Positions 10,975 through 53,075 of a stretch of DNA of 64,000 nt are shown piece by piece (within the stretch, counting starts at the first letter, position 1; each line of letters starts with the position of its first letter). The stretch comes from Vigna angularis (Eukaryota; Streptophyta; Magnoliopsida; Fabales; Fabaceae), in contig NC_068978.1 of assembly GCF_016808095.1 (NCBI RefSeq), positions 27,105,306-27,169,305 on the forward strand, read 5' to 3'. The notes beneath the pieces were generated by a model. The model ran no database searches, was not told the origin of the DNA, and saw only the letters and a list, made by a program, of their open reading frames with translations. Made by a program: the position numbers and the translations under genes.

Positions 10975-11235
10975 GGCTCGCTGGGCGAGCGTCATTTTTC
11001 GCTGGGCGCGCGCACTCGCTAGGCGAGCGTCCACTGCGCGCTGGACGAGCATCCACTTTTGCGTCCTTGCTGGACGAGCGTCCGCTCCTCGCTGGACGAG
11101 CATCCTCGCTGGTCGACGAGCCTCCTCTCGATGGGCGAGCGTCCACTTGCTGATCATGGGTGACCACTCGCTGGACGAGCGTTCAATGCTCGCTGGACGA
11201 GCGTCCTCGCTGGTCGACGAGCGTCCTCTCGCTGG
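10975..11235. repeat. GGACGAGCGTCC minisatellite in LTR C (part 1)
   Basis: Roughly a dozen irregularly spaced units of 'cgctggacgagcgtcc' and variants such as 'cgctgggcgagcgtcc'. The core GGACG-AG-CGTCC is itself an inverted repeat. The array resumes at 18155-18412 on the other side of element B. Confidence 0.9.
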
Positions 11236-11240
11236 GCGAG
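11236..11240. repeat. TSD of element B (left copy)
   Basis: GCGAG at 11236-11240 and at 18155-18159 flank element B exactly. The target was one unit of the minisatellite in LTR C. Confidence 0.9.
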
Positions 11241-12746: not shown

Positions 12747-12762
12747 AACTCCCCCAAACTTA
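12747..12762 (-). other. Polypurine tract of element B
   Basis: The minus strand reads AAGTTTGGGGGAGTT directly upstream of the 3' LTR start TGATAGG, the expected primer for plus-strand DNA synthesis. Confidence 0.88.
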
Positions 12763-16511: not shown

Positions 16512-16617
16512 TTATGCACAAGAATTCAAATATAATCACAATATACACTTAAACAACAGATAGCTAAAATCAACTAAACCAGATAAACAACAAATAATCA
16601 ACGAAAACAAAAACAAA

Positions 16618-16635
16618 TCCCCGGCAACGGCGCCA
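16618..16635 (-). other. Primer binding site (tRNA-Asp) of element B
   Basis: The minus strand reads TGGCGCCGTTGCCGGGGA, a perfect complement of the tRNA-Asp 3' end, six bases after the 5' LTR. Confidence 0.93.
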
Positions 16636-16641
16636 AAAACT

Positions 16642-18154
16642 TGTTGAGACCTCGGCAAGCGTACCGGATCGTTCAAGTAATAAATCAGTAAGTCCGAATA
16701 TCGTTTTCCCAAGGGATTTGTTTTGATTCACAGATTGATTAAAGTTTACTAATTTAGCGATTAATTTTACAACACAAGTAAGATTTGCATACAGATGAAA
16801 TTAAAGTGGTAAAAACAGATGAATTAAAGTTCACTGGGGTTGAAATTCAAGTTCATCACTCCGGTAATTTTCTACTAACACAATTCCTCAAAATTAAGCA
16901 TCGACATCCTAGGCGCATGCAGTCCTGATTCCTCAGAGACAATTCTTAATCATTCAAACTAAATTGCTAATTCCTTAGCTAATTCAATTATCAGATTTGC
17001 CTTAAACACAATGTCACAGATGACTAAAAATTCCCTCCTATGTCTAGGACTCGAAATCCTTTAGCAGTTCTATCCTAGGTTCGCGGTCTCATACATTTTC
17101 CAATGATTTAACCGTTCAAATAGCTCAGATTTCCATCAAAAGCATGAAAAATAAGGATAGAACACAAAATTCATACAAGATCATGCATTAATAGAGAAAT
17201 TACAAAGAGTTCAGAAAGTTACTCTCAACCCCAGTGAAATGGAGTTTTAGCTACACATATACAACATAGAAGAGAGAAATGATGGATTGGATGGTGGAAA
17301 TTGGTGAATTTCCAACATGGAAGCCCCTTGGAGCAGCTGCAGCAGCGTCCCTGGTCTTCTCCCCGTTCCAGATCCCCTTCTGCAACTCTGAATCAGCTTT
17401 TTAAAATAGAAGAGTTCAATAATTGAGTGGGCCAGGGACGCGTGTCCAATTTCTGGACGAGCGTCCCAATTCTGGATGAACGTCCAATTTTCTGGACGAG
17501 CGTCCAACTTCTGGACGAACGTCCAATTTCCTGGACGAGCGTCCAACTTCTGGACGAGCGTCCTCTCTTGGTCATTTTATGGACGAGCGTCAAAGTGCTT
17601 CTGCTAGACGAACGAGCGTCCTCTCCTATTCTGGACGAGCGTCCCATGCTGGACGAGCGTCCCTGTACGAGCGGCCTCACTCTGCTGGGCGAGCGTCATC
17701 TGCCGCTCTGGACGAGCGGGATGAGCGTCCCCTTCTGCGCGTTGGACGAGCGTCCTCTGCATGTCTGCACACTGGACGAACGTCCTGGACGAGCGTTGGA
17801 CGAGCGTCCTCACTCTGGACGAGCGTCCTCTTTCTTCTATGTGGCGCCCAGGCGCCCCTTTTTATCTCGCGCCCGGGCGCGACCTTCTCGGTAAAATCGC
17901 GCCCAGAGTCCTTTTTCTCACGCCCGGGCGCGAAACTTTCGGCAAAACAGCGTCCATTAAGCATGGTCCAAGTCTTTTATGATATCCAATCCTTATTTTT
18001 CATCAAAATAAACAACAAAAGCATCAAAAACATTTAAACAATGAAAATTATACTTATATCAACAATTATACACTTTTCATGAGAATAAACACTAAAACTT
18101 ACTCAAAAGCCACACAATATAAGCAACAAAAACAAGTAAACTTTTCACCTATCA
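16642..18154 (-). mobile_element. 5' LTR of element B
   Basis: 1,513-bp partner of 11241-12746. The complete element B is 11241-18154 (6,914 bp). Differences from the 3' LTR are a few substitutions plus gain or loss of minisatellite units (for example an extra 'ctggacgagcgtccaactt'-type unit near 17480, and a missing unit near 17640). Confidence 0.93.
17445..17830. repeat. GGACGAGCGTCC minisatellite in 5' LTR of B
   Basis: Same array as at 12040-12425 with a different unit order and number. Array length is therefore changing faster than the rest of the LTR. Confidence 0.92.
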
Positions 18155-18592
18155 GCGAGCGTCCACTGGTCGCTGGACGAGCATCCGTTCGCTGGCGAGC
18201 GTCCGTTCGCTGGCGAGCGTCTGTTCGCTGGCGAGCGTCCGTTCGTGGCTAAACGAGCGACCTCTACTCGCTGGACGAGCGTCCACTCGCTGGACGAGCG
18301 ACCGTTCGTGGCTGGACGAGCGTCCTCTGCTCGCTTGATGAGCGTCCACTCACTGGACGAGTGTTCATTCACTAGGCGAGCGTCCGCTCGCTGGGCGAGC
18401 GTCCTCTGCGTCCTAGCTCACTGGTTCTTCCCAATCCTTATTCTGTTGCAAAATAAACACACAAAAACACTCAAACTGATATAAAATCAATAATATATAC
18501 ATTTTATACAACTTTTGATGAGATTTTACTCCATAATGCATCAAAGGAGATTAAAATAAGTGCTCACGATATGCAATTCTTGACACTTATCA
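18155..18592 (-). mobile_element. Solo LTR C, part 2
   Basis: The remainder of LTR C on the other side of element B, beginning with the GCGAG TSD of B. The minisatellite goes on to 18412, then AT-rich LTR 5' sequence to the end TGATAAGTGTC (minus strand). The right TSD ACATT is 18593-18597, after which A's RT frame resumes. Confidence 0.85.
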
Positions 18593-18597
18593 ACATT

Positions 18598-19801
18598 CCC
18601 CTTCGGTATATTCCCCTATAGAAAGATGCCTTTTGGGCTTTGCAATGCCCCAGCCACTTTTCAAAGAAGTATGCAAGATATATTCTCCGATCTTGTGGAG
18701 AAATGTATAGAAGTCTTCATGGACGACTTCTCAGTGTTTGGAAGTTCATTTGATCTATGTTTGGCAAATTTGGAAACAGTCTTGAAGAGATGCCAAACCA
18801 ACCTCATTCTTAATTGGGAAAAATGTCACTTCATGGTGACGAAAGGGATTGTCTTGGGACATAAAATTTCATCCAAAGAAATTGAAGTGGACAGAGCTAA
18901 AGTGGAAGTCATTGAAAAGCTTCCACCGCCGACCAATGTAAAAGGAATTCGAAGTTTTCTTGGGCATGCTGGCTTTTACAGAAGATTCATTCAGGACTTT
19001 TCCAAGATTGCTAAGCCTTTAAGCAGCCTCCTTGTAAAGGATACACTATTTGAAATGAATGATGAACGTTTGAAGGCATTTGAAGTTTTGAAAGCCAAGC
19101 TAATTTCCGCTCCGGTGATTATAGCCCCTGATTGGAATAAAGGTTTTGAACCAATGTGTGATGCAAGCGACTATGCTATAGGTGCAGTCCTTGGGCAGAG
19201 AAGAGAAAAAATGTTCCACACAATCTACTATGCAAGCAAAGTCTTGAATGGAGCACAACTAAATTATGCAACCACAGAAAAGGAGTTTCTTGCCATAGTG
19301 TATGCGTTAGAAAAATTTAGGCCTTATCTCATTAGGTCTAAAGTGATTATATACGCTGATCATGCTGCCATCAAGTACTTGCTAACCAAGCCTGACTTCA
19401 AACCACGCCTGATCAGATGGGTGCTCTTGTTACAAGAATTTGATGTGCAGATTCATGACAAGAAAGGCAGTGAGAATGTCATCGCAGACCATCTATCACG
19501 ACTCATCAACGATGAAGTCACAAGCAAAGAAGAAGAGATTCGGGAATCCTTTTCGAATGAAACTCTCTTGCACATTCAACAGAGGCCATGGTTCGCTGAC
19601 ATGGCAAATTTTAAGGCAGCAGGAGTTATCCCAAAAGATTTATCTTGGAGCCAGAAAAAGAAGTTTTTCTATGATGCAAAACAATTTATCCAGGATGACC
19701 CTTTCTTGTTCAAGATTGGGGCTGACAACTTATTGAGGCGCTGTGTAACTGATGAAGAAGCAGCAGGAATCCTTTGGCACTGTCATAACTCACCGTATGA
19801 G
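18598..19801 (+). pseudogene. Element A RT C-terminal part, RNase H, integrase zinc finger
   Basis: The frame resumes with [21 protein letters not shown] and the catalytic FMDDFSVFG (MDD form of the RT YxDD box), then the thumb ([16 protein letters not shown]). RNase H follows ([48 protein letters not shown]), then the linker ending VIADHLSRL. The integrase zinc-finger region begins (WHCHNSPY) and is cut at the D3 insertion. More than 400 codons are open, so this part of A has decayed little. Confidence 0.93.
19797..19801. repeat. TSD of solo LTR D3 (left copy)
   Basis: ATGAG at 19797-19801 and 23104-23108 flank D3 exactly. Confidence 0.9.
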
Positions 19802-22800
19802 TGGTACGCGGGTCGCACCGCATACAAATTTGATTGCATAAAAGAATGCAGTATAGTCTAGGATTTGACTCCTAGGTCGTCTCTCAAGGACCAATATTGT
19901 GCGATTCAGTTTTAAGTCAATTACGAATTGGGGGGAGTTTTGACAGTTTGTTTTTGTGTTTTTATATGCAGAAAAATGTAAATGTTGAAAGCAGTAAATT
20001 AACAAACCGTAAAAATAAAACAGTAAATAGTAAAAACGAAATTTAACAGTAAAACTCAAAATCACAGTGAAAATAAAATGCAGAACACTAAACGGCTTAA
20101 AACGGTAAACTAATTACTGACAGATAAAAATATTGAACGCGAAAGTTAAAACATCAGTAAAAATAAACTGTAAAAAGTAAAAATGAATTAAAAACAGTAA
20201 AACAAAATTAAAATAGTAAAAACCAAATTGGTACAGTAAAAATGAAATTACAGCAACATAAAACAGTAAAAATAAATCTGGAACAGTAAAAACGAAAATA
20301 CAGAAAAACAGACAATACAAAAAACAGTAAATACAGAAAACAGTGAAAACAGAAAACAGTAAATTTTAGAAAACAGTTAAAACGAAAATACAGTTACATA
20401 AAACAGTAAAAATTAAATTTGGAACAGTAAAAACGAAAATACAGTGAAACATAAAATACAGAAAATTGTAAATACAGAAAACAGCAAAAACAGTAAAACA
20501 GTTAAAACAAAAAAAAATGAAATTACAGCAGTAAATAATAACAGTAAAAACAGTAAGTACAGAATTTTCAAAATCAGTAAAACAGTAACAGCAAAATACA
20601 GAAAACGAAAATACAAAAAATAGTAAATACAGAAAACAGTAAAAACAGAAAATAGCAAAATTCAAATATGAAAACAGGGAAAAAATTACAGCAGTAAAAT
20701 ACAAATAACAAAATTACAATGAATGATTCAAAGTGAAATAATGAACATCAAAATAAAATTCAATTTTGCAAAGAAAACATACCTCTTTTTGGCACTTCTT
20801 GTCATCTTTGAAATGAAAAGCAAATTGAATTCTATTCTCCACAACATAGGCAAGAGTATTCTTTCTCAAAAACACTAAAGAAGAGTCAAATTCAATTGCA
20901 AGAAAAGGTCCCTCATGGACTAAATGCTCATGGAATTTTAAGAAGAAAAAAATATGATGACTTCTTACCAATTAAGGTTGCTTTTCACTTACACACACAT
21001 CAGCTTCCCACTAAATTACTTCTTCAACTTCAAACACTTAATTATATGCTTACCATTCCAGCCATGATATCAACTCTTCCTTTGCTTCTTAATTAAGACA
21101 AAATCAAAGATGTATTAAAAGAGAAGGAACCTTGACAATTTTCATAAGTTACCAATTTCTTTGTTTTTATTTTTATTTTTTTACTTCTTACAAATTTAAA
21201 ATAAAATCATGAATCAATACTTCATCACTTACCTCAAAACAGCCATGACAATTCCCTTAAACCATAAAAGGATTCAACCAAAAACTTACCAAAAAAAAAC
21301 AAGCAAATGAAAGAAGAAGAATAACACTTACACATCCATTGGTTTTTTTTAGCACAAGTGAATAGAATGAAACACTTCCAAATTGAAATTACAATGCTTC
21401 TAAAATTACAACAACTTACAAACTCAAAATACAAATTAATACAAAGATGAAAACAATAGATGAATGAAAGCTTAAATGGAAAAGTGTACCAAACCAAAGG
21501 TGAAGGCACCAAGAACTTCAAGCTACATCATCCTTCATTCTTTCTAGCAATCATGGTTTTTTCTCATCCAACTCCAAACTCACTCTCTAGCTCATGGCCC
21601 TCCTCTCCAAACTAGGAATAGAATGGTGTCTTCCCCTCTCCTTCAAATTCAGAACCGTATCACACACCACCAACCAACCTCTTGAAAAATTTTCTTCTCC
21701 TTGGTTATAGCCATGACTTCAACTCTTCCTTTTTTTCTCCCTAGTGCAGCATTTTTTTTCCACTCAAAATGATGATGAATTCCTTAGTGGATGGAGCCCT
21801 CAAGGTAATGGAGCACTTCCACTAGCTGCCCTTTTCTCCAAACTAAGAATTGTTGCAGCTGGAAAGTGAAGTTGTTGCTGCTGGAAAGTGAAGCTCTCTT
21901 GCTTATGTTAAATCCATTGGCTTCCATGGGTGTGATAGCTGCTGAGAGTTATGATTCCTTTGGTGCTCCACTTCACCTTTCCATGAGCATGTGCTAATAA
22001 AATAAAGGAAGCAAGACTCCATTCAATGTTGGCTGCCCATTTCCACGTGAATGTGTGCTCTTTCATGTGCTAACAAATTGTTAAAAGTGATTGGAAGCAA
22101 ATTGCCAAGAATGTGCACTCCCAACATGGTCTTTTGCTTTCTTTGCTTTGGGTCCACTTGTCCCATGCTCTCCTTGGTTGGATGCTTCATGTGACACACC
22201 AAAGATGTTCCAAAATAATTCTCTATGTGCTTCATGTATGAATTGGAAGAGTGTGACAAATTCAAAAAAATTGTGGCAGCATCTTCATGCTTCATTCCAT
22301 CATCCATGTACATTGTTTGTGCAACAATATTCACATAAAACTTTGTGTGCTTATGTGCTTGGTTTCCAATTCATTTCAACTGTGAGATGCATCTCTAAGC
22401 CAATACCTTGATATTCCAGCCACCACAAATACCAAACAACAATCAAACAATGCAAAGAGATTAGACATTACCCAAACAGTAAACACTAGACTGACATAGG
22501 AGAGTAAAACAAATACTGGGAACAGCACAGAACGAATTTGAACAAAAAAAACTATACGTGAAAATAGACATCAATACGAAACTATGAAAAAAAATTGCAT
22601 AGAAAACAGATAAGAATTGAACTCGAACGAAGACACACAAGTTGACACAAAATTCACGCATCACTAGACTGACATAGGAGAGTAAAACAAATATTGGGAA
22701 CAACGTAGAATGAATTTGAACAAAGTGAAAACTATACGTGAAAATAGACATCCATACGAAACTGTGAAAAAAAATGGCATGGAAAACGGATAAGAATTGG

Positions 22801-35967: not shown

Positions 35968-38133
35968 TGATGAGTTAATATTTTCTTCACTTTAATTAGT
36001 TTATTGTACCAAATTTAATCAGGGAAGTGTGCTAAAATGTCCAGTATTATTCCGTTTTTGCTAATTGTGCGTAATTTGATCGGAAATTCTTATTTTAATT
36101 AATTTGAATTATCTGAGACTAATTATTTGCATTATTAATTGAAGAAAAATTATTGGATATTATTTTGGGACTGAAAGAGAAAATTATCATCAATCACGTT
36201 TTAAACCAAAATGAGAAACAAAGTGAAAAAGATTTTATTTGCATTTTGTACACAGAAATGGCTTATGGAAACCGTACAGCAACGTTGCTCTACTACATCC
36301 ACATAGAGAAGTTTTCAATTTGGTTGGAATGCAAAGGTAGAGTGCGGTTTTCAATTTGGAAAACTGATTCACGTGGTGAAATAAAGGGCTGCCACAATTC
36401 CTAAGCAATTGTCACGGCATGGGTCCATCTACCAAGAGAAAAGTTATTTTTTTTAATTCTTGGAACAGATATGCAGACATTCTCATTCCTTTTCTCAAGT
36501 GATGGCACAAGGGCCTATTGGAAAACTTATTTTTTTGGACAGCATCTACTCTATGTTGGCACAAAGGTGGGAGCCACTACACTTTCTCTTGGCTGGAACG
36601 TGATTAACATATGAAAGAGCAACACTTATCCAGCTCACATTCAGCTCACGGTATTTGCACATGTAAGAGAAGCTTTTTGCTGTCACAGCTGCACTTGGAA
36701 AGAACACGCTGCCATGTCCAGCAGAGGAGAGCTCACGGGAATGAGGAGCTAGCATCGTGAGAAGGATCAGCAGTCACACCAGCTGGAAGGAAAGCACACA
36801 GAAATGAAAGAGGAGCATCCAGCAGTTGGGAGAAAAACGTCCAAACTGCCAACCAAGAATGAGGAGTGATGATGGGCTTTAGGTGTGTGCTTGGAGAGAA
36901 TACAGCAGTAGCACCATCCAACAAGCATCACCATCCAGCAAGAAATGAAGCTAAGTCCAGCAAGAGAAGAAGCATCATCCAACTCATCATCCAACAAGCA
37001 TGAGAGGTGCACGGAGATTAGATTCAAGGGAGCACAATAATGGTGATTAATTGGTTGAAGGAAGTCAAAAAGATGGAAGACCCCTTGCTGTTTTGGAACG
37101 TCCAGGAGAAGCATGTCAATTCATTGACTTTGGAGAGAAAGAAAGAAGCTCTCACGGCTGGATGGAGAAGGAGGCAGCCCTTATGCACATTTTGGAAGAT
37201 CCAGAGACACTCACGGTGCTTGAGAAGACCACGTTCCAGCTAGGAGAAAGAAGTGGTGTAGTGATGTTTTAGGTGCTGATTCAAATAAAAAAGGAGGCAC
37301 ATTCATTTTATTTTTAAGAGAAATGTGGACATTCATTTATGGAGGGGTCAATTTCTTTTAAAAGAAGCATATTTTATTCATTCATCAAAGAAGTGGCATG
37401 GTCATGAAGTGGCAATATGAGAATGGAGGGCCCCTTTGTTGTTTTTGATACGTAGGAGGTGATAAGAAATGTGCTAGGAGGAAAAGGTCAAAAGGTGGGC
37501 ATCATATTACTGTATTTTCGTTTTTACTGTTCCAGATTTATTTTTACTGTTTCATATTACTGTATTTTCGTTTTTACTGTTTTGTAAAATTTATTGTTTT
37601 ACTGTTTTTACTGTTTTCTATATTTTTCATTTTTGTATTTTATGTTTTTCTGTATTTTCGCTTTTACTGTTCCAGATTTATTTTTACTATTTCAAATTAC
37701 TGTGTTTTCGTTTTTACTGTACCAATTTCGTTTTTACTGTTTTAAATTCGTTTTACTGTTTTTAATTCGTTTTTACTTTTTATGGTTTATTTTTACTAAT
37801 GTTTTTACTTTCGTGTTCAATGTTTTACGTTTTTTTTTCACGTTTACTGTTCCAGCGTTTTATTTTTCAATGTCCTGATGAATTTTGCATTCTTTTATTT
37901 TTACTATCTTTTACCAGTTCAGTTTTTACCATTTTGAAATTTATTTCAACATTTTAATTCAGTCGTGTTTAATTTTCATCTGCAACCAAAAACAATCAAA
38001 ACCCCCCTTTTCGTGTTAAATCTGAGACTAAACCATGATATTGGTCCTTGAGAGATGACCTAGGAGTCACATTCTAGAACTATACTGCATTATTTTCGTG
38101 TAATCAACTTTTGTGTGCGGTGATCGCTCAACA
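35968..38133 (+). mobile_element. LTR D5 (5' LTR of a family D element)
   Basis: Starts TGATGAGTTAATATTTTCTTC, has the 'TTTTTACTGTT' zone (37510-37930) and the conserved end box 'ggtccttgagagatgaccta' (38042-38061), and ends CTCAACA just before a tRNA-Asp primer site. This is the copy that shows what D1-D4 are: LTRs of a tRNA-Asp-primed Ty3 element. Confidence 0.82.
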
Positions 38134-38136
38134 AAA

Positions 38137-38153
38137 TGGCGTCGCTGCCGGGG
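38137..38153 (+). other. Primer binding site (tRNA-Asp), D5, first copy
   Basis: TGGCGTCGCTGCCGGGG: two mismatches to the tRNA-Asp complement, three bases after the LTR end. Confidence 0.8.
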
Positions 38154-39020
38154 ACCAATGCAGGTTTGGTTTCAGATTTCATTATGTAAATTTTTTGTTA
38201 ATATGTGTGTTTTGTCTTGTATATTTTTGTAGCCGACAACGACACCTTCAGCAAATTTTGACAGCATTGTCACTTCAGTTCAGATTTTTGTTTTAGATTT
38301 TTACTGTGTTAATATATGTTGTGTTAATATATGTTTAGTCTTTTATATTTTTATTGTGTTATGTTTTGTATTATGTCTGTTAAATAAAAAAAAATTATTT
38401 TTGTGTTGTTTTGTGTGCGTGTAACATGTATAAATGTGTTGTGATTTATCTGTTTCGTAATTTTTAGTATTTAGTTTTTATTTGTTTTATTGTTTTTACT
38501 ATTTCCTATATTTTTCATTTTTTGTATTTTATGTTTTTCTGTATTTTCGCTTTTACTGTTCCAGATTTATTTTTACTGTTTAAAGTTACTGTATTTTCGT
38601 TTTTACTGTACCAATTTCGTTTTTACTGTTTTAAATTCATTTTACTGTTTTTAATTCGTTTTTACTTTTTACGGTTTATTTTTACTGATGTTTTTACTTT
38701 CGTGTTCAATGTTTTACGTTTTTTTTTCACGTTTACTATTCCAGCGTTTTATTTTTCAATGTCCTGATGAATTTTGCATTCTTTTATTTTTACTATCTTT
38801 TAGTTTTTACCATTTTGAAATTTATTTCAACATTTTAATTCAGTCGTGTTTAATTTTCATCTGTAACCAAAAACAATCAAAACCCCCCTTTTCGTGTTAA
38901 ATCTGAGACTGAACCACGATATTGGTCCTTGAGAGACGACCTAGGAGTCACATTCTAGCACTATGCCGCATTATTTTTGTGCAATCAACTTTTGTGTGCG
39001 GTGCGACCCGCTCAACAAAA

Positions 39021-39036
39021 TGGCGCCGCTGCCGGG
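39021..39036 (+). other. Primer binding site (tRNA-Asp), D5, second copy
   Basis: TGGCGCCGCTGCCGGG, one mismatch. It lies in the second unit of the tandem duplication, after GCGACCCGCTCAACA, which matches the end of D3 (GCGACCCGCGTACCA). Confidence 0.82.
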
Positions 39037-39480
39037 AACCAATGCAGGTTTGGTTTCAGATTTCGTTATGTAAATTTTTTGTTAATATGTGTGTTTTGTC
39101 TTGTATATTTTTGTAGACGACAACGACACCTTCAACAAATTTTGGCAGCGTTGTCACTTCAATTCAGGTTTTTATTTTAGATTTTTACTGTGTTAATATA
39201 TGTTGTGTTAATATATGTTTAGTCTTTTATATTTTTATTGTGTTGTGTTTTGTATTATGTCTGTTAAATAAAAAAAAATTATTTTTATGTGTTGTTTTGT
39301 GTGCGTGTAACATGTATAAATGTGTTGTGATTTATCTATTTCGTAATTTTTAGTATTTAGTTTTTATTTGTTTTATTTTTATTTTTCCATGTCTACCTAT
39401 TCTGGCTATGTGAATACTGCTTATTCTGTTGATGCCTCTAGCTATGACTCTATTCCTGCATATTACTATTTTTAATTCTG

Positions 39481-40137
39481 TTGATTTCTATGATGAGAAC
39501 AATGTCTCATCCTCAAACTTCTGAGACCTCCCGTTGGGAGCCGGTTCCACCTACTGAGGATGGTGATCATTTAATTCTCACCACTGGACTGATAAATTTG
39601 TTGCCCCATTTTTATGGAGTTGCGAATGAATGCCCACATACGCATTTGGAAAAGTTCTATGGAATTTGCTGTTATATGAAACCTCTAAATGTCCCGGATG
39701 ATCACATTTTCTTGAGGGCATTTCCACATTCATTACAAGGAGCAGCTAAGGATTGGCTGTATTGTCTTCCTCCAGGACTCATTACCAAATGGGAAGATCT
39801 TGAGAAAAAATTTCTGAGCAAATTCTCCCCTGTGCAATATGCTTATAACAACGATCCTAGATGAAATGACCCGAGTTTGGGATGGTTCGATGCTCCACAG
39901 AAATATCAGGAAGCACCATCTCAGGATACTTTTATGCCTCCGCTAGTCCAGCAATATCAAAGTCAGCAGTATAATGCTTATGCCCAAACAACCCCTCAGC
40001 CTTCTACTTCTGAGCTCACATTGCAGGAGTTATTGGAGCAGATGACCATGCAGAACATGCAGTTTCACAAAGAGAGCATGAAGATCCAGCAGGAAACTCA
40101 AACTGCCATGCAGAATCTGAGTGATCAGATCGGGTAG
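39481..40137 (+). pseudogene. Family D element gag (broken, internally deleted)
   Basis: Reads LINLLPHFYGVANECPHTHL, then FYGICCYMKPLNVPDDHIFL, AFPHSLQGAAKDWLYCLPPG and LEKKFLSKFSP, a typical plant Ty3 gag domain. A TGA follows NNDPR (39862), where related gags have Trp. Then SLGWFDAPQKYQEA and a glutamine-rich helix (LQELLEQMTMQNMQF) lead to a TAG where Gln is expected (40135). The segment between KFSP and NNDPR is shorter than in full gags, so the middle is deleted. Confidence 0.78.
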
Positions 40138-40990
40138 ATGGTCACTCTTGCACCTAAGGAGAATGCTGAAGATTTTGAGGCCCAGGCAGGAATAAGCAAT
40201 ACCTTTCAGATAGGTAGACCATTTTTATCTTCCACCGTGGAGGTAAACGTACCTCAACTTGAATGTGCAGTTGATGAATTGGAAATTCATGAGAAAATTT
40301 ATACTGAGCAAAAACATGTTTATTCTGAAACTGAGATTACAAGCTCTTTATTTGATTTGCTTATACATTCAATTGCTTGTGATTTGTTGCACAATGATTC
40401 TACAGATTTTAGGATTGAAACTGATATAGATTTGATTGACAATTCTGAAGTTTTTGATTCAGTTTTAGTCTCTGAAACCATTGGTATAAATGTTGTGTTG
40501 AATGAACATGATTACAGTGATGAAATTTCCATTGATAATAGCTTTGAACTGAATGTGGATTTTGTTGATGATGCATATGTCAATATTGATTTTGAGACAG
40601 GAATTTTGCAATTGCATAACATGATAGAGTTAGAACAAAACTTCGATCTGACTCAGTTTTCTGAGAATTGTGTGATTGTGAATCTGATTCTTGCCCGATT
40701 TGTATTGAAATTGATTATGTGTTACAAACAGATTCTAAATTCATAACAGATGCTATTGATTATGAGTTTGATGACCAGGTTACAAAAGTAAATGAGAATA
40801 CAGGTACTGACATAGAGGAAATAATGATAGATGAAGGAAAGTATACTGCTATTTCTCTTATTACTTCGGTGTCACAGACTGAAAACCTGTTGGTGGACAG
40901 AAGGCTCCTGATTTTATTGATTCAACAACTTCCTCGGAGAAGAAGAAAGAAAAGTCTCGATTTAAGTTAGAGGGCAGTACTGGGCGAGCT
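40138..40990 (+). pseudogene. Acidic ORF following gag in the D5 element
   Basis: A 202-codon frame (40138-40746) that overlaps a second one to about 40967. It is very rich in Asp, Glu, Ile and Asn (for example DFRIETDIDLIDNSEVFDSV) with no RT, protease or integrase signature. Where the frames overlap, frame two gives the cysteine cluster CDCESDSCPIC. Its start continues from gag after the TAG, so it is probably the C-terminal part of a gag-like polyprotein in a non-autonomous element. I do not recognise the family. Confidence 0.5.
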
Positions 40991-41288
40991 GCTCCTGAAG
41001 ACATCTTCGCCGGATCCTGAGGTGGAAGATATCTCACTGATGGTCCAGATTTGACAATTGCCACCATGACCAGGAGTACTCTTCTTCCTCATTATGTACA
41101 TATTATTTAGCTTTTCTGGTGTGTTTTCATGGTTGTATTTATTTCATTTTAATTTTTAAATTGTGAGCATGAAATTAAAAAAAAAATAAAAAAATTAAAA
41201 TCATAATAAAATTAAGTGTCCATATTACAGTCCTTATTCAAATTTTGTTCAAATTCTGGCTACACTCGCCAACAAAAACATAAAAAAA

Positions 41289-41304
41289 ACATATATATAT
41301 ATAC

Positions 41305-41337
<33 letters not shown>

Positions 41338-41601
41338 CGTGTATATATACATACCTATATATACATGTATATGTATATACATATACATACATGTATATGT
41401 ATATACATATACATGTATATGTATATACATATACATGTACATGTACATGTATATACATATACATATATACATGTATATGTATATACATATACATATATAC
41501 ATGTATATGTATATACATGTATATGTATATACATATACACGTATATATGTATATGTATGTATATATATGTATATATATATATGTATGTATATATATATAT
41601 G

Positions 41602-41679
<78 letters not shown>
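41289..41679. repeat. (TA)n/(TACA)n microsatellite
   Basis: About 390 bases of TATA, TACATA and TGTATA mixtures just 3' of the left-arm WOX-like gene. It is absent from the mirrored position of the right arm, so it expanded after the palindrome formed. The tyrosine/isoleucine-rich frames on both strands are an artefact of the repeat. Confidence 0.95.
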
Positions 41680-41689
41680 AATATAAACT

Positions 41690-42227
41690 TTAAAATGGAA
41701 AGTGGTTATTGGATGGCAATCTTAAGGTAAGCTCCGTTGAGGGAGCTCTGGTACGGAATGCAGGAGGCATAGGTGGAGGGATTTGTTGTTCATCTCTTTC
41801 GTCGTCGATGATGATCCGAATGGGGAACAGATCCAGCAGCCTCATTGCCCTCATAACTACCCAGTCATATTCTTTCAACAAAAATTTGTATGTCAATAAT
41901 AGAAAAGGAAGAGTAAAATTCAACAAAAATAGAGATATGATCAGAGTTCTTACCATACATGTATCGCGGCAGCAAAGAAAAGATAGTGCCAGTGGGGTCT
42001 ATCTCTGCTTGCATGCGCCTGACCCGATTGCCATGGTTGTTGAACCAGCATTGCACGTTATATTCGCCGGCTTCTTCGAAAGTCCTTAGTCGAGACGCAA
42101 TCTCGAAGACTTGGGCTCTGCTTGGGTGTGTGATCCCATAATTGTATATGTTGGTCATCATCTTGATCTGATCATCAGTAAGACGCCACCGCTGACAGGT
42201 GGATCTCTCTATTTCCATCTCACTCAT
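41690..42227 (-). CDS. Miniature WUSCHEL-clade-like homeobox (WOX) gene, left palindrome arm
   Basis: Two-exon model: exon 1 42227-41954 (donor GTAAG), exon 2 41856-41690 (acceptor TAG), 146 residues, TAA stop. Residues 13-73 form a WOX-type homeodomain: [24 protein letters not shown] and [12 protein letters not shown], with the helix-3 Trp61, Phe62, Asn64 and Arg68 kept. Known WOX proteins have WFQNHKAR, so Gln, Lys and Ala of that box are changed. After the splice, LLDLFPIR (98-105) resembles the WUS box (TLxLFPxx), and ELTLRLP (133-139) resembles the C-terminal EAR-like LxLxL repression motif. WUS-clade WOX factors are nuclear regulators of stem-cell niches and are usually 170-300 residues, so this is very short. 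Start chosen because both arms keep it and the domain begins 12 residues later. It may be a decayed or captured copy; expression is unknown. Confidence 0.7.
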
Positions 42228-42956
42228 CTTTCCTCTCGAAGTATTCTAAAACATAAAATTAAAAAAATAATAATAATAAAATAAAAAGAACAATAACAAA
42301 ACAAAAAGCATAACATAAAAAAAAATATATTAGATTCTTAGTTCAGTGTTTTCTTTATTTGTTTTTGTTTCCTTTTATGTTTATTTTGTCTAGTCAGTCT
42401 TTGATGTTTCAGTGTCTAGTCTCAGATCCGTTTCACGGTCCTTGCAAAAGGGTCCTAAAAGGATCTATGTCCCGTTGTCCTTGTCCATGTTGCTCATGTA
42501 AATTAAGTTTCTGTGTTTATTCAGTTTTAAGTGGGGTACGTGGCGTTGTTATACCCGATTGTCTCTGCCATACCTTCATCGGATCTATGTCCAGTCTCAT
42601 ATATTTGATTGAAGGTATGACAGAGACAATCGGGTAGAACAACGCCACGTACCCCACTTAAAACTAGATAAACACAGAAACTTAATTTACATGAACAACA
42701 TGGACAAGGACAACTGGAGATAAATCCGTTTAGGACCCTTTTGCAAGGACCGTGAAACAGATCTGAGACTGGACACAGAAATATCAAAGACTGACTGGAC
42801 AAAATAAACCTAAAAGGAAACAAAAACAAATAAAGAAAACACTGAACTAAGAATCTAATTTTTGTTATGTTATGCTTTTTGTTTTTTTTTTGTTCTTTTT
42901 ATTTATTTTTTTTTTATTTATTTTTTTATTTTTTTTAGAATACTTCGAGAGGAAGG

Positions 42957-43494
42957 ATGAGTGAGATGGAAATAGAGAGATCCACATGTCAGCGGTGACG
43001 TCCTACTGATGATCAGATCAAGATGATGACCAACATATACAATTATGGGATCACACACCCAAGCAGAGCCCAAGTCTTCGAGATCACGTCTCGCCTAAGG
43101 ACTTTCGGAGAAGCCGGCGAATATAACGTGCAATGCTGGTTCAACAACCATGGCAATCGGGTCAGGCGCATGCAAGCAGAGATAGACCCCACTGGCACTA
43201 TCTTTTCTTTGCTGCCGCGATACATTTATGGTAAGAACTCTGATCATATCTCTATTTTTATTGAATTTTACTCTTCCTCTTCTATTATTGACATACAAAT
43301 TTTTGTTGAAAGAATATGACTGGTAGTTATGAGGGCAACGAGGTTGCTGGATCTGTTCCCCATTCCGATCATCATCGACGACGAAAGACACGAACGACAA
43401 ATTCCTCCACCTATGCCTCCTATATTCCGTACCAGAGCTCCCTCGACGGAGCTTACCTTAAGATCGCCACCTAGTAACCACTTTCCATTTTAAA
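42957..43494 (+). pseudogene. WOX-like gene, right palindrome arm (two lesions)
   Basis: Same gene model as the left arm in mirror image: exon 1 42957-43230 ending at GTAAG, exon 2 from 43327. The codon for the first homeodomain Trp is TGA (CGGTGA against CGGTGG on the left), ending the protein after 13 residues. A one-base C insertion in 'gagctcccctcg' (about 43438-43446) shifts the frame before the EAR-like motif. The rest of the homeodomain ([37 protein letters not shown]) is intact. The two copies diverge outward from the shared centre, so each has about 350-380 bp of mirrored upstream DNA. Confidence 0.8.
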
Positions 43495-43719
43495 GTTTAT
43501 ATTTTTAGCTTCTTTTTTTTTATGTTTTTGTTGGCCGAGTGTGGCTAGAATTTGAATAAGGACTGTAATATGGACACTTATTTTTTTATGTTTTTAATTT
43601 ATTTTTTTTATTTTATTATTACGAGTGTCCGAACTCAAACTGACAATAATATGTATTTATGTTTTTGTTTTTATTATGTTTTTTTTTTTAATTTCATGCT
43701 CAATTTAAAAATTAACATC

Positions 43720-46589: not shown

Positions 46590-48207
46590 CTGATCAATGA
46601 AATAAACAAGCAACTCCTCAGCAAGTTCACGGTCATCAGATTGTGAAGTTGTCTCCATGGCGTCTTTGTAAAGGTTATCCATTTTAGACAATGCAATAGA
46701 CTGCTTCCATCTACCTGCCTGCTTGTAAATGTAAGCAGCAACATGCCTAATCTCAAGAAACTCATGCTTTTCAATCTGTATTTCAGAATAATAGATAATC
46801 TATCAGCTTCCTAATATTGAATTGAAAATAGTCAACACTGAATTAATGCAACTAACCTTCTGTGCAAGGCCTAATTGGTCAAATTTATCATGCAAATCAA
46901 TTGACTCGCGCAATCTATCATAGTCTTCCTCCTCGACATATATTTCATTCAGGGCTTCATTAACAGCAGACACATTGTTACTCTAAACTGTAACCACGTA
47001 TGGCTTGACAAGACAGAGATGACCAACCTATAATACAATGCAGGGAAAACATTCATTAGTGAAATAGAAAAAAAGGTTATAGAGTAAAAAACTGATCAAA
47101 CTGTTGCCAGTATTAAAGCTACCTTTCGCATGACCTCTTCCAAGTCATCCACCTACTAAATTCACAATCAAAATTGACTGAACAAGCATCCGAAAGAGTA
47201 TAAGCTCATAAGCAGCAGACTCAAGTAATGTTCACAAAATCTTCCAATAACAAGTTCACAGCATATTTATACATTGTAGTATACTATTTCCCCATTACAT
47301 TTTGAACGAACAAATTATTCAACCTTTATAATTTGGAATCAGATGACAGCTAAATAAAAATATCGAGTTAATTTAAAAATTTAGTTAATGAATTGTCAAA
47401 CAAAAACAACAATTTACCTTAATAATGTTAAGCCCACATATTTGGGCCAAAAGGAACTCCTCTGCATCAATACAGGCAAAGCAAACTTCCTTCCATGTTT
47501 TTGCACTGTTAACTTTCCTTGCTGCATCAACTGCACCTTGGAACTATTTTAACTTCACAAGTGTAACTGCTAACTTGGTCCAGTTAGATATAAAGGCAAA
47601 TATGATTTTGGCAGCTTCATATAGTTCTCATCATATAGATTGGCTACATTTGGCATAAGAACGAACTCCTCAATGTCACCGAGCCTATCAATCTCTGCAT
47701 ATGCATAAACGAGCTCACTGTCCACCTTGGGTTCTTTAGTCTTCTGTCGAGCCATCAGCAAGTATCTCACCAAGTCATGGTAAACATTAGAATCTTCAGA
47801 AGCACGGATAACATATAAAAATTGTGTAGTACTATCGTCTGCTCGTATAAAGGACTCATGGCATCACTTACTAGTCCCATATAATTGAGCCTCAATAGCC
47901 ATTTCTCCAACTGCATGCCCATCAAAATTATCCAGTCTATTAATATAATCCATAACTCTGAATGGATCAGCCTTTATTGCTGTTAAAATAAGTATATTCT
48001 GCAGATTAAAGTTGCCACTGAATGCAGAATTATGAAGGACGATCTTCTCAAGAAGCTCAATCAATTCATGAGGTAGATCAGCAGTCATGAAAGCCTTAAC
48101 AGCAGCAGATACTTGTTCAGGGCTCTTGCTTTCAGGCAGAGCTGTAGATACAACTTGATCAATTAGTTGCCTTCTGTAGACATTATCAGGGTTAAGAACT
48201 TTGTCCC
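46590..48207 (-). pseudogene. Clathrin heavy chain pseudogene, 3' exons
   Basis: Minus-strand pieces of clathrin heavy chain, the leg of the clathrin triskelion in vesicle coats. In gene order: [20 protein letters not shown] and [18 protein letters not shown] (48202-47864), a deletion of about 40 residues, then [19 protein letters not shown] and [15 protein letters not shown] (to about 47640), [19 protein letters not shown] and [10 protein letters not shown] (about 47620-47420), VDDLEEV (47155), [20 protein letters not shown] (about 46990-46858), and [16 protein letters not shown] to FIDQ (46775-46590). Introns with GT/AG ends are kept between pieces, so it came from genomic DNA, not from an mRNA. 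In-frame stops, a frame break at 47864 and the copia insertion make it non-functional. It covers only the repeat region of a ~1,700-residue protein. Confidence 0.9.
48203..48207. repeat. TSD of copia element 2 (left copy)
   Basis: GTCCC at 48203-48207 and 53039-53043 flank the element. The target lies within a clathrin exon, between the Trp-Asp and Lys codons of DLWDKVL. Confidence 0.95.
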
Positions 48208-48365
48208 TCTTAGAGAATTTAGAGAAAGAAACTCTCTTTTTATTATCTTCACTTACATCTAATACACAGTAAACACATACTTATACAATAAAGAAGAAAC
48301 AGTAATCAATAGTAAATAGTAGGCTCCTATTGAGTCTATATCTAAAAACATATTACATTTCAACA
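48208..48365 (-). mobile_element. 3' LTR of copia element 2
   Basis: Minus strand begins TGTTGAAATGTAATATG and ends CTCTAAGA, so it ends in GA where CA is usual. Both LTRs share this end. Confidence 0.93.
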
Positions 48366-49420
48366 CTCTCCCTCAAGCTGGAGCATATAAGTCATATGCC
48401 CCAAGCTTGGAACATATGAATTGAATTCTAGGCCCCTTAGAGATTTGGTCAACATGTCTCCGAGTTGTTCATTAGAGTTGACAAATTCAGTAACCAGTTC
48501 CTTTGACAACAACTTCTCTCTAATAAGATGACAGTCAATTTCTATGTGTTTCGTCCTCTCATGAAACACAGGATTGGAGGAAATGTGTAAAGCTGCTTGA
48601 TTGTCACAGTACAGTTTCATTTGCTCACTTTCACAAAACTTCAATTCTTGAAGAAGTTGTCTAATCCACACAAGTTCACATGTAGTTAGAGCCATAGATC
48701 AGTATTCAGCTTCAGCACTAGATCGAGCAACAACGTTTTGTTTCTTACTTTTCCAAGATACAAGGTTCCCACCAAGTAAAACACAATATCCTGTAGTAGA
48801 TCTTCGATCAATTGGACTACCAGCCCAATCTGCATCACAATATCCTTCAATCCGAGTGTTTCCCTTGTTCTCATACAACAGTCCCTGTCCCGGGCTTCCT
48901 TTTATGTATCTGAGAATGCGAAGTATTGCATTCCAATGATCAACATGTGGATTTTGCATAAATTGACTCACAACTCCAATTGGATAAGAAAGATCAAGTC
49001 TTGTTATGGTAAGATAAATGAGTTTTCCAACTAGCCTTCTATATTTCTCTGGGTCTGAGAAAGGTTCACCCTGATCTCTCATTAACTTTTGATTTGGGTC
49101 CATGGGATTATCAATGGGCTTGCAATTTGTCAGACCTGTTTCCTCTAAAATGTCAAGAGCATATTTCCTTTGTGAAATGATGACACCTTCTTTTGATTGT
49201 GCCACTTCAATACCAAGAAAATATTACCCAGATCTTTAGTTTGAAAGTGATTGAACAAATGATTCTTTAACTGATTAATTCTAGTGATGTCATTCCCTGT
49301 AATAACAATATCATCAACATACACCATGAGATAAACACATTTGTTAGGAGAATTGTGACCATAAAACACTGAATGATCCGCCTCACAACGTTTCAATCCA
49401 AATTTTTCTAAATTTACCAA
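48360..49420 (-). pseudogene. Copia element 2: RT C-terminal half and RNase H
   Basis: Contains the RT catalytic YVDDIVITG (about 49330), [12 protein letters not shown], then [20 protein letters not shown] and the RNase H motifs [41 protein letters not shown] and HIEIDCHLIREKL. Broken by a frameshift near 49205 (after KDLGN), a stop after AEAEY (48696), and a frameshift with the upstream RT frame near 49400. Confidence 0.93.
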
Positions 49421-50861
49421 ACCAAGCTCGAGGTGATTGCTTTAAGCCATAAAGGGAACGACGCAACTTACAAACTAATCCAGACTCCCCCTGAGCAACA
49501 AATCCAGGAGGTTGCTCCATGTATATCTCCTCTTCCAGATCACCATGAAGGAAGGCATTTTTAATGTCTAACTGATAAAGAGGCCAATGACGAATGGCAG
49601 CCATAGCAAGCAAAATACGAACGGTACTGGTTTTAGCCACAGGAGAAAAAGTATCACAATAGTCTTGGCCGTAAACTTGAGTATAGCCATTAGCTACCAA
49701 TCGAGCTTTAAGGCGATCAATTTTACCAGTAGGACCAACTTTAACAGTATAAATCCATCTACAACCAACAGGCTTCTTATCAGGAGGAGGAGGGACAAGA
49801 TCCCAAGTGCCATTGTGTTCAAGTGCCTTCATCTCATCAACCATGGCTTGTCGCCATCCAGAATGACCAAGTGCCTCATGAATATTATTAGGAACCTTAG
49901 TCGATGATAATGACGAAACAAAGGAGAAATATGTAGGAGACAAATTATGATAACTCACAAAATTATAAATAGGATATGGATTGCGAGTAGAACGAATACC
50001 TTTCCGGAGGGCAATGGGCCAGTTATCATCTGAATCAGTAGAAGGTGAAGATGATGAAGGATCCATGGTTTGAGGATCTGATGCAGAAGGATCTGAGTCT
50101 CGAGGATCGTTAGTGTTAGGAGTTCGAGATTGGGTTCGACATTGATATGTGATAAGAGGTGGAGGAACAATGTTATTTGGATTTTGATTTTGAGGTACAG
50201 AATCAGGAATAATTAGAGGATCACATGTTGGTAAAGGAAACATTTGTTGAGTAGAGGAACGATCCTCCATGGAGGAAGGGAAAAAAGGTGTATCCTCAAA
50301 GAATGTGACATCAGCTGACATATAATATCTCTTGGTGGAGGGAGAATAACATTTATACCCTTTCTGAAGACGAGAGTATCCTAAGAAAACACACTTGATA
50401 GCTTTTGCTGAGACCTTATCAAGACCTAGAGAAACATTATGAACAAAACACATACACCCAAATACACGTGGGGAAACATGGTATAAAGTGTCGTTGGGAA
50501 AAATGGCAGAGTGAGGAATTTTATTATTAAGAGAGGAAGAAGGCATCCTATTGATAAGAAAACAGGCAGTGAGGACTGCATCGCCCCAATGATGTACATG
50601 AACATTAGTATTCAACATTAAGGAACGTGTAGTTTCAATGAGATGTCTATTCTTTCTTTCTGCAATGCCATTTTGTTCTGGAGTGTGAGGACAGGTTGAC
50701 TGGTGTAAAATTCCTTGGGAAGATAAGAATGAAGAAAATGCTAGAGAGAAGTATTCCTTAGCATTATCACTTCGAAGAATTTTAATTGTCCTCCCAAATT
50801 GGTTCTTAATTTCAATAAAAAAAGACTTGAATATGGACAAAAGTTCATATCTCTCTTTCAT
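49383..50861 (-). pseudogene. Copia element 2: integrase core and RT N-terminal half
   Basis: 492 open codons. Integrase continues with [11 protein letters not shown] (second catalytic Asp) and [16 protein letters not shown] (catalytic Glu). A Ser/Pro/Asp-rich linker follows. RT begins at [20 protein letters not shown], with [41 protein letters not shown] (first catalytic Asp) and [15 protein letters not shown]. Separated from the upstream frame by one TGA near 50880. Confidence 0.93.
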
Positions 50862-50879
50862 TAAATAAACCCAAGTACA

Positions 50880-52501
50880 TCAAGAGAATTCATCAATAAA
50901 AGTTATAAAATAATTAAAACCAAATGAAGTAACACGACTTGGTCCCCAAACATCTGAATGAATTATTGAAAAAGGAAAATCACACTGTGTCTCAGATCTT
51001 TTAGGATAGGAAGATCTAACATGTTTTCCTAATTGACAAGATTCACAATCTAAGACTTGGATGTTTTTGAGACTTGGAACCATCATCTTCAACTTGAACA
51101 AACTTGGATGGCCTAGACGATCATGCAAAAGTTTGGGGGATGAAGTGGTAAAGCAGGAAACTGAGAAATGAGGTTTTAAGAAATAAAGTCCTTGAGACTC
51201 ATGTCCTTCTCCAATCAGACGACCTATCCCATGTTCCTGTATAACAAAAGAATTGGCCATAAAGGTTATGGAACAATTTAAGGTACGAGTCAACTGACTC
51301 AAAGAGATTAAATTGTATGGACAATTGGGAACATAGAACACAAAATTTAAACTTAGTGAAGGAGATAAGGAAACTGTTCCAGTTCCCTGAGATTTCACTT
51401 TAGATCCATTGGCAAAGGTAATAAGATGAGGAATTCTTGGAGAAGACAATGAAGAAAATGAAGTAATGTTACCAGAGATATGGTCTGAGGCACCTGAGTC
51501 CAGAATCCATGGATTATGACCTTCCACAGATTGAGATAGGCTGGCTGTAGGCACACTAGTCATGACAGAGGATTGGCCAGGATTAGAAGGTTTTCCAGAC
51601 TTGTAACGTAAAAATTCTTCATACTCTTCATTTGAAATTCTGGATTCTAGATCACCAGATTTAGACACATGAGCAACTTTGTCTGGATATCCATGTAGAA
51701 CATAACATTTGTCTCGAGTATGGCCTAGTTTCTTACAGTATGTGCATTGAGGAGGACGTATGCTAAGACCACCACGTCCTCGGTTGCTTCTGCCTCCTCC
51801 TCTTCCTTGTGGCACTCCTCTTCCTTGTGGCACTCCTCTTCCTTGTGGCATTATCATAGCTGATGTTCCAATAACATCGATTGAATTCTCATCTTTCACC
51901 AATGGAGGTACTCGAAGAAGTCGAGTAACCAAACCATCCATTGAAGGGATTTGATCACCAGCTAAAACTTGATCACGTACATGATCATAATCGGAGTGTA
52001 AGCTTCTCAGAATTAGGACCATGTAAAACTTGTCAAGCTTTTTATTGATCCCTTCTAATGAATCAGCTACAAAGAAGTTCTTCAATTCTTCTACAGCAGC
52101 CCGAGCCTTTGCTATATGAGAAACCATGTCATGGTTGACTTATTTTAGAGAAGCTACTTTTTGGGTTACATCAAAAAGACGTTGTACATCATTAGCAAAA
52201 ATATCTTCTGCCTTTTCCAGAATGATGAACATGTCTTATAGGGTCTCAAGATATCTAGAACCTCTTGCTCCACTGAATGCCACAAAAGTGCGCATAACTG
52301 AAAATCTAATTTTTACCATTGAGATTTTTCTTCATCTGGAACCATAGAGATATCTTGTTCAAGATGATCATGGTGTCCTTGACCAAGAAACCATAATTCC
52401 ACTGCAGAATACCAAGATAAATAATTTTTCCAATTGAGTTTTGCAGATGTGATGATAGGAGTTGCAGATAGAGAGGAATTAATTCCAGTAGTAGATGCCA
52501 T
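50880..52501 (-). pseudogene. Copia element 2: gag, protease, integrase N-terminus
   Basis: Gag starts MASTTGINSSLSATPII near 52501. There is a break between 52313 and 52127 (an in-frame TAA before the Met of MVSHIAKARAAVEEL). It continues to the zinc knuckle CTYCKKLGHTRDKC (C-X2-C-X4-H-X4-C), preceded by three tandem PQGRGV units. Protease: WILDSGASDHISGN. Integrase zinc finger: HDRLGHPSLFKLKMM and CESCQLGKHV, then the core start HSDVWGPS (first catalytic Asp). The frame ends at a TGA after FIDEFS. Confidence 0.93.
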
Positions 52502-52866
52502 TACAGATATGGAAAATGAACCAAACTTGGAGAGAGAAAACCCTAGGTGTCAACTACACCCCCTAAAACAGTGAAGTAAGGTCCGAAACAGGCTCAGGAG
52601 AGTGAGGCGAGCGGAACCCTAGGTGCGCGGTGAAATTCCGACCAACATAGGGCGGCGCGTGAACAGTACACACGCGAGATCTGGCGAACTTCGGCAGCGC
52701 GTGAAGACGATGCAGGGACGGCGACCACCAGGGTTGGGTCGCGCTCACGGAGGCGCACAAAACCCCTAAATTTTCCTGAGAAAATGAGATACCGACGGCG
52801 ACGGCGGCGACGACGACGGCGGCAGCTGGTAGTTGACGGCGTCTACAGAAGAGAGCCTCGGTGCTA

Positions 52867-52880
52867 GGCTCTTGATACCA
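52867..52880 (-). other. Primer binding site of copia element 2 (initiator tRNA-Met type)
   Basis: Minus strand TGGTATCAAGAGCC directly follows the 5' LTR end CTCTAAGA. Copia elements usually have TGGTATCAGAGC, so one extra A is present. Confidence 0.88.
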
Positions 52881-53038
52881 TCTTAGAGAATTTAGAGAAA
52901 GAAACTCTCTTTTTATTATCTTCACTTACATCTAATACACACTAAACACATACTTATACAATAAAGGAGAAACAGTAATCAATAGTAAATAATAGGCTCC
53001 TACGGAGCCTATATCTAAAAACATATTACATTTCAACA
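52881..53038 (-). mobile_element. 5' LTR of copia element 2
   Basis: 158 bp, partner of 48208-48365. The TSD GTCCC follows at 53039-53043. Confidence 0.93.
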
Positions 53039-53075
53039 GTCCCAAAGATCAACATCCATTCTCTCAACAACATAT
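53039..53075 (-). pseudogene. Clathrin heavy chain pseudogene, 5' edge of the interrupted exon
   Basis: Reads (R)YVVERMDVDLWD directly after a splice acceptor (GGATTACAG, AG at 53077-53076). It joins [14 protein letters not shown] across the copia insertion. Known plant clathrin heavy chains have YVVERMDGDLWEKVL here. Confidence 0.85.

Follow-up and report, generated by a model that had tools for sequence, protein, structure and literature searches.

A palindrome in azuki and a probable retrotransposon-borne accessory gene for a small WOX-type homeodomain protein

A stretch of 64,000 nucleotides from the azuki (Vigna angularis) genome (NC_068978.1, positions 27,105,306 to 27,169,305; hereafter the window) carries a palindrome at 41150-43718, from the centre of which two copies of a small WUSCHEL-related homeobox (WOX)-type gene diverge. 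A reading made earlier from the letters of the window (the original prediction) had described two mirrored two-exon genes around a 31-nt loop, and this description was borne out by inverted-repeat analysis. Comparison with related copies in the genome (448 Mb, 33 contigs) places both genes in a large family carried by long terminal repeat (LTR) retrotransposons. The palindrome and its genes are composed as follows.

41150..42578, minus strand: left arm of the palindrome; a TA-rich microsatellite occupies 41291-41685 within it
42579..42609, no strand: loop of the palindrome, 31 nt; the junction falls on CCTTCGATTGAAGG, a short hairpin belonging to the conserved 5' element
42610..43718, plus strand: right arm of the palindrome, with its outer end at about 43718
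42532..42581, minus strand: truncated conserved 5' element of the left arm, 4 mismatches in 50
42607..42656, plus strand: truncated conserved 5' element of the right arm, 1 mismatch in 50
41954..42227, minus strand: exon 1 (homeodomain) of the left copy, open, read from 42227 to 41954
41872..41953, minus strand: intron of the left copy, 82 nt, GT..AG, placed by comparison and omitted in most annotated relatives aligned
41690..41871, minus strand: exon 2 of the left copy including the stop, read from 41871 to 41690
42957..43230, plus strand: exon 1 of the right copy, broken by TGA at 42996-42998
43313..43493, plus strand: exon 2 of the right copy, with a 1-nt deletion close to its start

The search for inverted repeats in the window gave an arm pair at 41861-42307/42877-43323 (447 nt, 93% complementary), and further pairs at 42255-42578/42610-42933 (324 nt, 88%) and 41679-41861/43322-43504 (183 nt, 92%). 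The microsatellite, about 400 nt in length, is present in the left arm only. The position of the junction within the 5' element was determined by comparison with other copies of the family.

The left copy was found to be open, as predicted, over 151 codons instead of 146. Its product matched the Pfam homeodomain with 28.2 bits (cut-off 22.9) over residues 12-70, and the closest solved structures were those of WUSCHEL (6ry3, E 4e-8) and STENOFOLIA (6wig), supporting the WOX-type assignment; helix 3 reads WFNNHGNR as claimed. The WUS box has the consensus T-L-x-L-F-P and the EAR motif LxLxL. The LLDLFPIR and LRLP motifs that had been noted are present, but the R of the former and the second L of the latter are private to the window copy, relatives showing mostly LFPIP or LFPVP and LRSP or LRPP at these sites. 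The right copy is interrupted by a change of TGG to TGA at codon 14 and by the 1-nt frameshift. Of the assignable coding changes, four belong to the left arm, none of them synonymous and one lying at the end of LLDLFPIR, and five to the right arm, of which four are nonsynonymous; the other differences between the arms could be attributed to neither. Six positions of the left copy are unlike all 43 other copies compared; the right arm (stop counted) and the copy at locus L012 likewise have six private positions each, the count for L012 being raised by a palindrome junction. By pattern search, the TATA module of the family had no match anywhere in the 64-kb window. Since this module is lacking and all four left-arm changes are nonsynonymous, the window copy is, judged by its sequence, a decaying and rearranged relic.

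The family itself proved to be large, in agreement with the expectation of a multicopy family. With exon 1 as query, at least 150 matches were obtained in the genome, the window copy included, all with E of 2.1e-53 or less (150 scored of 620 candidates), and a protein of a second subfamily (P0059, subfamily B) gave at least 278 matches (150 of 1018 candidates scored). A WUSCHEL homeodomain query detected 11 canonical WUS-clade homeobox exons with 64-86% identity and 84-122 bits, followed by a next match of 59 bits; two partial WOX3-like pieces (57-59%) scored lower. By this measure, the genome has few canonical WUS-clade genes, and these stand apart from the family. At the protein level, a single-sequence search detected 57 proteins, all from V. 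angularis, and an alignment-based search, in which the 7990 best candidates were scored, detected 73, nearly all from V. angularis, the exceptions being one V. radiata protein and two WOX2-like sequences (Henckelia and Dorcoceras). When WOX2 was made part of the seed in a third search, 3542 proteins matched, and the 120 listed among them contributed V. umbellata copies and a third subfamily. Some of the gene models carry the name WUSCHEL-related homeobox.

The protein subfamilies (A, B, and C) are about 50% identical and keep the homeodomain, LFP, and LSLR-type motifs, except for P0068 and P0074, in which parts are missing. At the WUS-box site, LLDLFPI stands in the window copy and mostly LLDLFP in subfamilies A and B; exact TLDLFP was found in four of the five listed subfamily C proteins. 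LSLRL is present in many subfamily B and C proteins. The recognition helix reads WFNNHGNR or WFQNHGNR in the family. As this helix differs from that of canonical WOX proteins and yet is nearly fixed within subfamily A, it suggests that subfamily A has DNA targets of its own.

The surroundings of the gene were then compared in 10-kb stretches around 20 high-ranking matches, in 20 short stretches, and in 3 stretches of 8 kb. Polarity was read from a primer binding site, gag, or pol. Loci without such a mark (L009, L010, L013, L015, L023, and L027) and palindromic loci (L011, L012, L018, and the window) were left out of the orientation count. The WOX gene lies antisense to the host element in 13 of the 14 remaining loci, namely, L016, L017, L019, L020, L021, L022, L024, L025, L026, L028, L069, L070, and L071.

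Three kinds of host were recognized. In L025 and L069, the WOX gene lies downstream of pol and on the opposite strand; the 3' LTR lies outside the stretches captured at both loci. The L025 pol has RVT_1, RT_RNaseH, RVT_3, H2C2, and rve domains, and that of L069 has the same without the rve match. A second RNase H before the integrase domains (RT_RNaseH plus RVT_3) is thus present in both, and this domain marks the Tat lineage (PMC6317226). The Tat assignment covers these two loci and does not extend to the window element. The latter was grouped instead with the Athila-like hosts, which have gag and an Athila-type primer site (L016, L017, L019, L021, L024, and L026), and for which no pol was found by tblastn within the stretches examined. 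The third kind (L020, L028, L070, and L071) has a primer site that is presumably of the tRNA-iMet type and repeats of 1.1-3.1 kb or more, and here too no pol was found within the stretches examined. The marks of the window element are the following.

39502..41066, plus strand: gag-like region of the host retrotransposon, in several frames, detected by tblastn with gag of L024 and L021
39021..39038, plus strand: primer binding site with 2 mismatches, which we take to be of Athila type; duplicated at 38137-38154

The gag-like region is sense relative to the element, and the left WOX copy is antisense to gag. A tandem duplication of about 0.9 kb (93.8%) at 37571-39383 takes in the primer binding site.

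Long direct repeats, which we read as LTRs, flank the WOX gene in several loci. With gaps ignored, and with some of the compared repeats running off the ends of their stretches, they differ at 1 of 1631 positions (L021), 7 of 1589 (L024), 15 of 3137 (L028), 35 of 2430 (L020), 7 of 1147 (L071), 21 of 1873 (L070), and 26 of 1693 (L019). At a substitution rate of 1.3e-8 per site per year, all the compared insertions would be younger than 0.6 million years.

The coding part and its flanks have different histories. Between L018 and L028, identity is 92% for the 5' region, 94% for the upstream flank (254 nt), and 75% for 634 nt on the downstream side; in the coding parts it is 89% (exon 1) and 82% (exon 2). 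L018 and L013 are 95% identical in both exons, and their flanks cannot be aligned. L070 resembles L028 and L018 in its 5' flank (87-93%), yet its gene belongs to subfamily B. The pol proteins of L025 and L069 are 86-90% alike, and their WOX genes belong to subfamilies A and C. Because flank and coding similarities disagree in this manner, we conclude from the alignments that the coding part moves between elements and LTR families.

Alignment of the upstream regions of seven copies revealed a TATA region (CTATAAA in six of the seven), a leader rich for the most part in pyrimidines, and a 78-nt element that hardly varies. A TATA pattern with up to 8 mismatches was found in 10 of 20 loci, and the 78-nt element with up to 12 mismatches in 16 of 20; the TATA pattern overlooks divergent copies such as L028, of which the TATA is seen in the seven-copy alignment. 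The predicted RNA folding energy of the 78-nt element was not better than that of shuffled sequences (z -0.10). In copies for which tblastn detected the two exons as separate in-frame matches, the distance between these is mostly 74-85 nt, which would be expected if the intron is kept by virtue of the gene being antisense to the genomic RNA. Exon 2 carries the WUS-box-like and EAR-like motifs. As read from these comparisons, the full cassette is composed of a TATA-containing 5' module, the conserved 5' element, the homeodomain exon 1, a short intron, and the motif-bearing exon 2.

Selection on the coding sequence was estimated from pairwise ratios of nonsynonymous to synonymous divergence (dN/dS) for 46 copies (1035 pairs). 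The ratio of sums was 0.92 at dS below 0.05 and, with rising dS, took values of 0.53, 0.36, 0.29, 0.30, 0.27, and 0.27, the medians going from 0.94 to 0.14. A ratio near 1, which the original prediction had associated with a simply decayed fragment, was therefore true of the recent copies and not of the family. Insertions and deletions pointed the same way: 29 of 35 entries were multiples of 3, many of them shared by descent, and those breaking the frame were found in the right arm, L015, L038, and L020, with two in L012. An ATG start and no stop in the aligned codons were found in 29 of the 46 copies. The fall of dN/dS from recent to old pairs indicates that the source gene was kept as a protein; on this sequence evidence, recent copies decay neutrally and the source lineage is constrained as a protein.

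In a homeodomain tree (midpoint-rooted), subfamilies A, B, and C split together from the host WOX genes (approximate likelihood-ratio test 98.5, bootstrap 78), and a single origin of the three is therefore likely. For the same reason we call the family WUS-like and not a member of the WUS clade. A host WOX2-like paralogue (L057, G000:C11:3752207-3752509) groups with an Abrus protein; it stands at the top of the host panel against subfamily C proteins and is a candidate parent.

Three further head-to-head palindromes of the WOX cassette were detected, at L011 (loop 73 nt), L012 (30 nt), and L018 (612 nt). Their arm segments are 93-100% complementary, and their centres differ from that of the window palindrome. 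In a tree of arms, the arms of the same locus pair with each other for the window (support value absent), L011 (98), and L018 (100), not for L012. As the centres differ and same-locus arms pair except at L012, the palindromes in the family are likely to have arisen by several events. Fold-back duplication of the cassette may be frequent in the family. The outer ends of the window palindrome first resembled terminal inverted repeats, as of a Pack-MULE; this candidate was rejected, since other copies sit in LTR elements. Capture of a WOX-type gene by mobile DNA and its inverted duplication at this site, as originally claimed, are supported, but the palindrome is not itself the capture event: it arose by secondary rearrangement of a single member of a large family borne by LTR retrotransposons.

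The sequence comparisons show a WOX-type gene family that rides almost always antisense in azuki LTR retrotransposons, with a cassette structure, constraint on the coding sequence, exchange of the coding part, and recent insertions. They altogether suggest, with a probability that we put at about 0.8, that this is a selected accessory gene for a small WOX-type regulator. The regulator is probably a repressor; repression is better supported for subfamilies B and C than for A, because the full EAR motif is common in the former and not in the latter. After integration, the cassette would be transcribed from its own promoter within the TATA module and then spliced, the intron outlasting retrotransposition by virtue of lying on the strand opposite to the genomic RNA. 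The protein, about 150 residues long, would enter the nucleus and bind DNA there with its homeodomain, in which the recognition helix is altered. It would repress its targets through the WUS-box-like motif and through an EAR motif, the latter clearest in B and C, probably by way of TOPLESS-type corepressors. Purifying selection on the source lineage argues that the protein helps the element, in the simplest case by regulating element or host transcription in the meristem cells leading to the germ line. The window copy would derive from one such cassette by fold-back at the 5'-element hairpin, with loss of both promoter modules, and would now be decaying. Vigna LTR elements might even have recruited a stem-cell-type regulator, namely, a WUSCHEL-like repressor gene that they exchange between families and that, acting from within the element, tilts meristem or germ-line cells, or the state of silencing in them, towards transposition; this would be a plant counterpart of antisense retroviral regulators such as HBZ. 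We regard this extension as tentative and on balance doubtful.

Several observations weigh against a selected accessory repressor. An ATG is lacking or a stop is present in 17 of the 46 copies, even though these were taken from the best matches, a choice that favours intact copies. Taken as a whole, the 5' block shows no clear excess of conservation over fourfold sites (mean distance 0.140 versus 0.158; lower in 63 of 91 pairs, with one badly aligned row included). The homeodomain tree puts the family outside the WUS clade, and the closest host gene differs among subfamilies, B matching best to WOX8/9 and A and C to WOX2-type genes, labels that we presume from resemblance. Most subfamily A copies have no full LxLxL and read LTLRS, LTLRP, or LSLRP, and the window copy owes the last L of its LTLRL to a private S143L change. 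The altered residues of the recognition helix may mean that DNA binding is changed or lost, and the AlphaFold2 model of a relative (P0001), with helices at the homeodomain positions, had a mean pLDDT (per-residue confidence) of only 48.9. L014 is the lone exception to the antisense rule: a same-strand reverse transcriptase fragment ends where the WOX homology starts, in a broken copy with exon 2 interrupted and its parts split by about 2.6 kb. At L020, the sole locus inspected by eye, a target-site duplication was not seen.

The palindrome may have a role of its own as RNA. Mu killer is an inverted duplication for which read-through from a flanking gene is assumed (PMC3440606), and the window palindrome, also an inverted duplication of a transposon gene, could act likewise if read-through from a neighbour gave a hairpin RNA, of which the small interfering RNAs silence the whole retrotransposon family. 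Its arms of about 900 bases, 88-93% complementary around the 31-nt loop, fit such a role, and the stem has three or more 21-mers in common with every one of the 44 other family copies (range 3-269, in windows of about 700 nt). With 17 homeobox exons of host-type WOX genes (each about 270-310 bp, the part of the host genes compared), the stem had exact matches of at most 13 nt. A hairpin RNA would thus target the retrotransposon family, and the small RNAs against the parent WOX gene that had been proposed look unlikely. The missing TATA module speaks against a Mu-killer-like locus, and the three other palindromes make a mere by-product possible; we consider this role unlikely, though worth keeping in mind. 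A different RNA-level view, in which the cassette matters as antisense RNA, by transcriptional interference or double-stranded RNA control of the element, gains from the near-constant antisense orientation and has been proposed for other antisense open reading frames (ORFs) (PMC7264820). It is improbable here, since the drop of dN/dS with age and the in-frame indels argue for selection on protein, and the diverged subfamilies retain their protein motifs with the two exceptions named.

The other readings have less in their favour. A small transposon inserting into LTR elements would explain why the cassette is present in unrelated LTR families, but not its single orientation in 13 of 14 loci, and no common ends, as judged by eye, were found where the alignments stop; this is very improbable. 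That the left copy still produces a small homeodomain repressor, as had been offered as an alternative, has slighter chances again: its open frame and detectable homeodomain are set against the lack of a TATA module, the exclusively nonsynonymous left-arm changes, and as many private positions as in the right arm and L012. Least probable of all is that dispersed host WOX genes were amplified through segmental duplication, an interpretation that genome papers may have adopted. The naming of some models as WUSCHEL-related homeobox and the significant WOX expansion reported in Vigna reflexo-pilosa (PMC10357499) fit it, but the gene is surrounded by flanking repeats, primer sites, gag, and pol in a consistent orientation. 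The V. reflexo-pilosa expansion may represent the same family, and WOX expansions reported for Vigna genomes may be retrotransposon genes.

Other features were noted elsewhere in the window. Several tandem arrays with units of 11-63 nt, mostly including a GACGAGCGTCC-like sequence, lie at 11064-18404, close to gypsy-type frames (reverse transcriptase at 18584-19858) and Athila-type primer sites. A match to the C/D-box small nucleolar RNA snoR71 (44.3 bits, cut-off 40) at 15775-15881 on the plus strand falls within a retrotransposon gag-protease frame (13968-16511) of the opposite strand; at gathering scores, Rfam gave nothing else in the whole window, and this match is away from the palindrome. 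Ty1/copia-type frames (RVT_2, Pol_BBD) at 48205-53041 lie between 164-nt direct repeats of 95% identity. At the edge of the transposon nest, a minus-strand frame at 58760-60151 matches GTP cyclohydrolase I twice (E 5e-65 for the whole protein) and represents a host gene.

Among known systems, the WUSCHEL clade has the homeodomain, WUS-box-like, and EAR-like motifs in equal order; the family differs in its length of about 150 residues, its WFNNHGNR or WFQNHGNR helix, and its split from host WOX in the tree. Mu killer of maize shares the inverted duplication of a transposon gene and the potential hairpin RNA (PMC3440606), whereas here an LTR retrotransposon accessory gene is concerned, known from sequence alone. 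Bdelloid LTR retrotransposons likewise have one extra ORF type across diverse retroelement types (PMC5408684), but the present gene is from plants, antisense, and of the homeodomain class. Orchid Tat-type Gypsy elements with an ORF for an AlkB-type N6-methyladenosine demethylase (PMC9289625) also have a host-type domain fixed in Tat elements; that product is an RNA demethylase, whereas the gene described here is antisense, transcription-factor-like, and present also in non-Tat families.

The closest parallel is the antisense ORF aORF-3R of Tat/Retand, Grande (gene23), RIRE2, and PvRetro13 (PMC7264820, PMC11963269, PMC4093653). There too, an antisense gene lies between pol and the 3' LTR in many copies per element family, a nuclear function is suspected, and Grande has a promoter of its own for it. 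Those products are described as TRP28 (Retand), SMC-like (bean), or unknown proteins without a host-gene relative, whereas an intron-containing WOX-type homeodomain gene is present here in several LTR lineages. The TRP28 domain (PF04195) had no match in the WOX proteins scanned, which sets them apart from Retand-type antisense ORFs. The cut-off of 250 codons used by Neumann et al. 2019 (PMC6317226) lies above the about 150 codons of this gene. In the openly licensed PMC literature searched, and for that literature only, no paper among those listed was found to describe a WOX or other homeodomain gene carried by an LTR retrotransposon, and the terms WUSCHEL and homeobox gave no match in the available part of a 2026 review of gene capture (PMC13317346). 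Antisense extra ORFs are already known, and a WOX-type homeodomain gene among them is new within this literature. The origin and role of plant antisense extra ORFs were stated to be unknown, and capture of a host gene was held unlikely, as no gene resembled them (PMC7264820). Here the antisense gene is recognizable, selected, intron-keeping, often equipped with a promoter module, and exchanged between LTR lineages, so that its function should be open to ordinary WOX assays.

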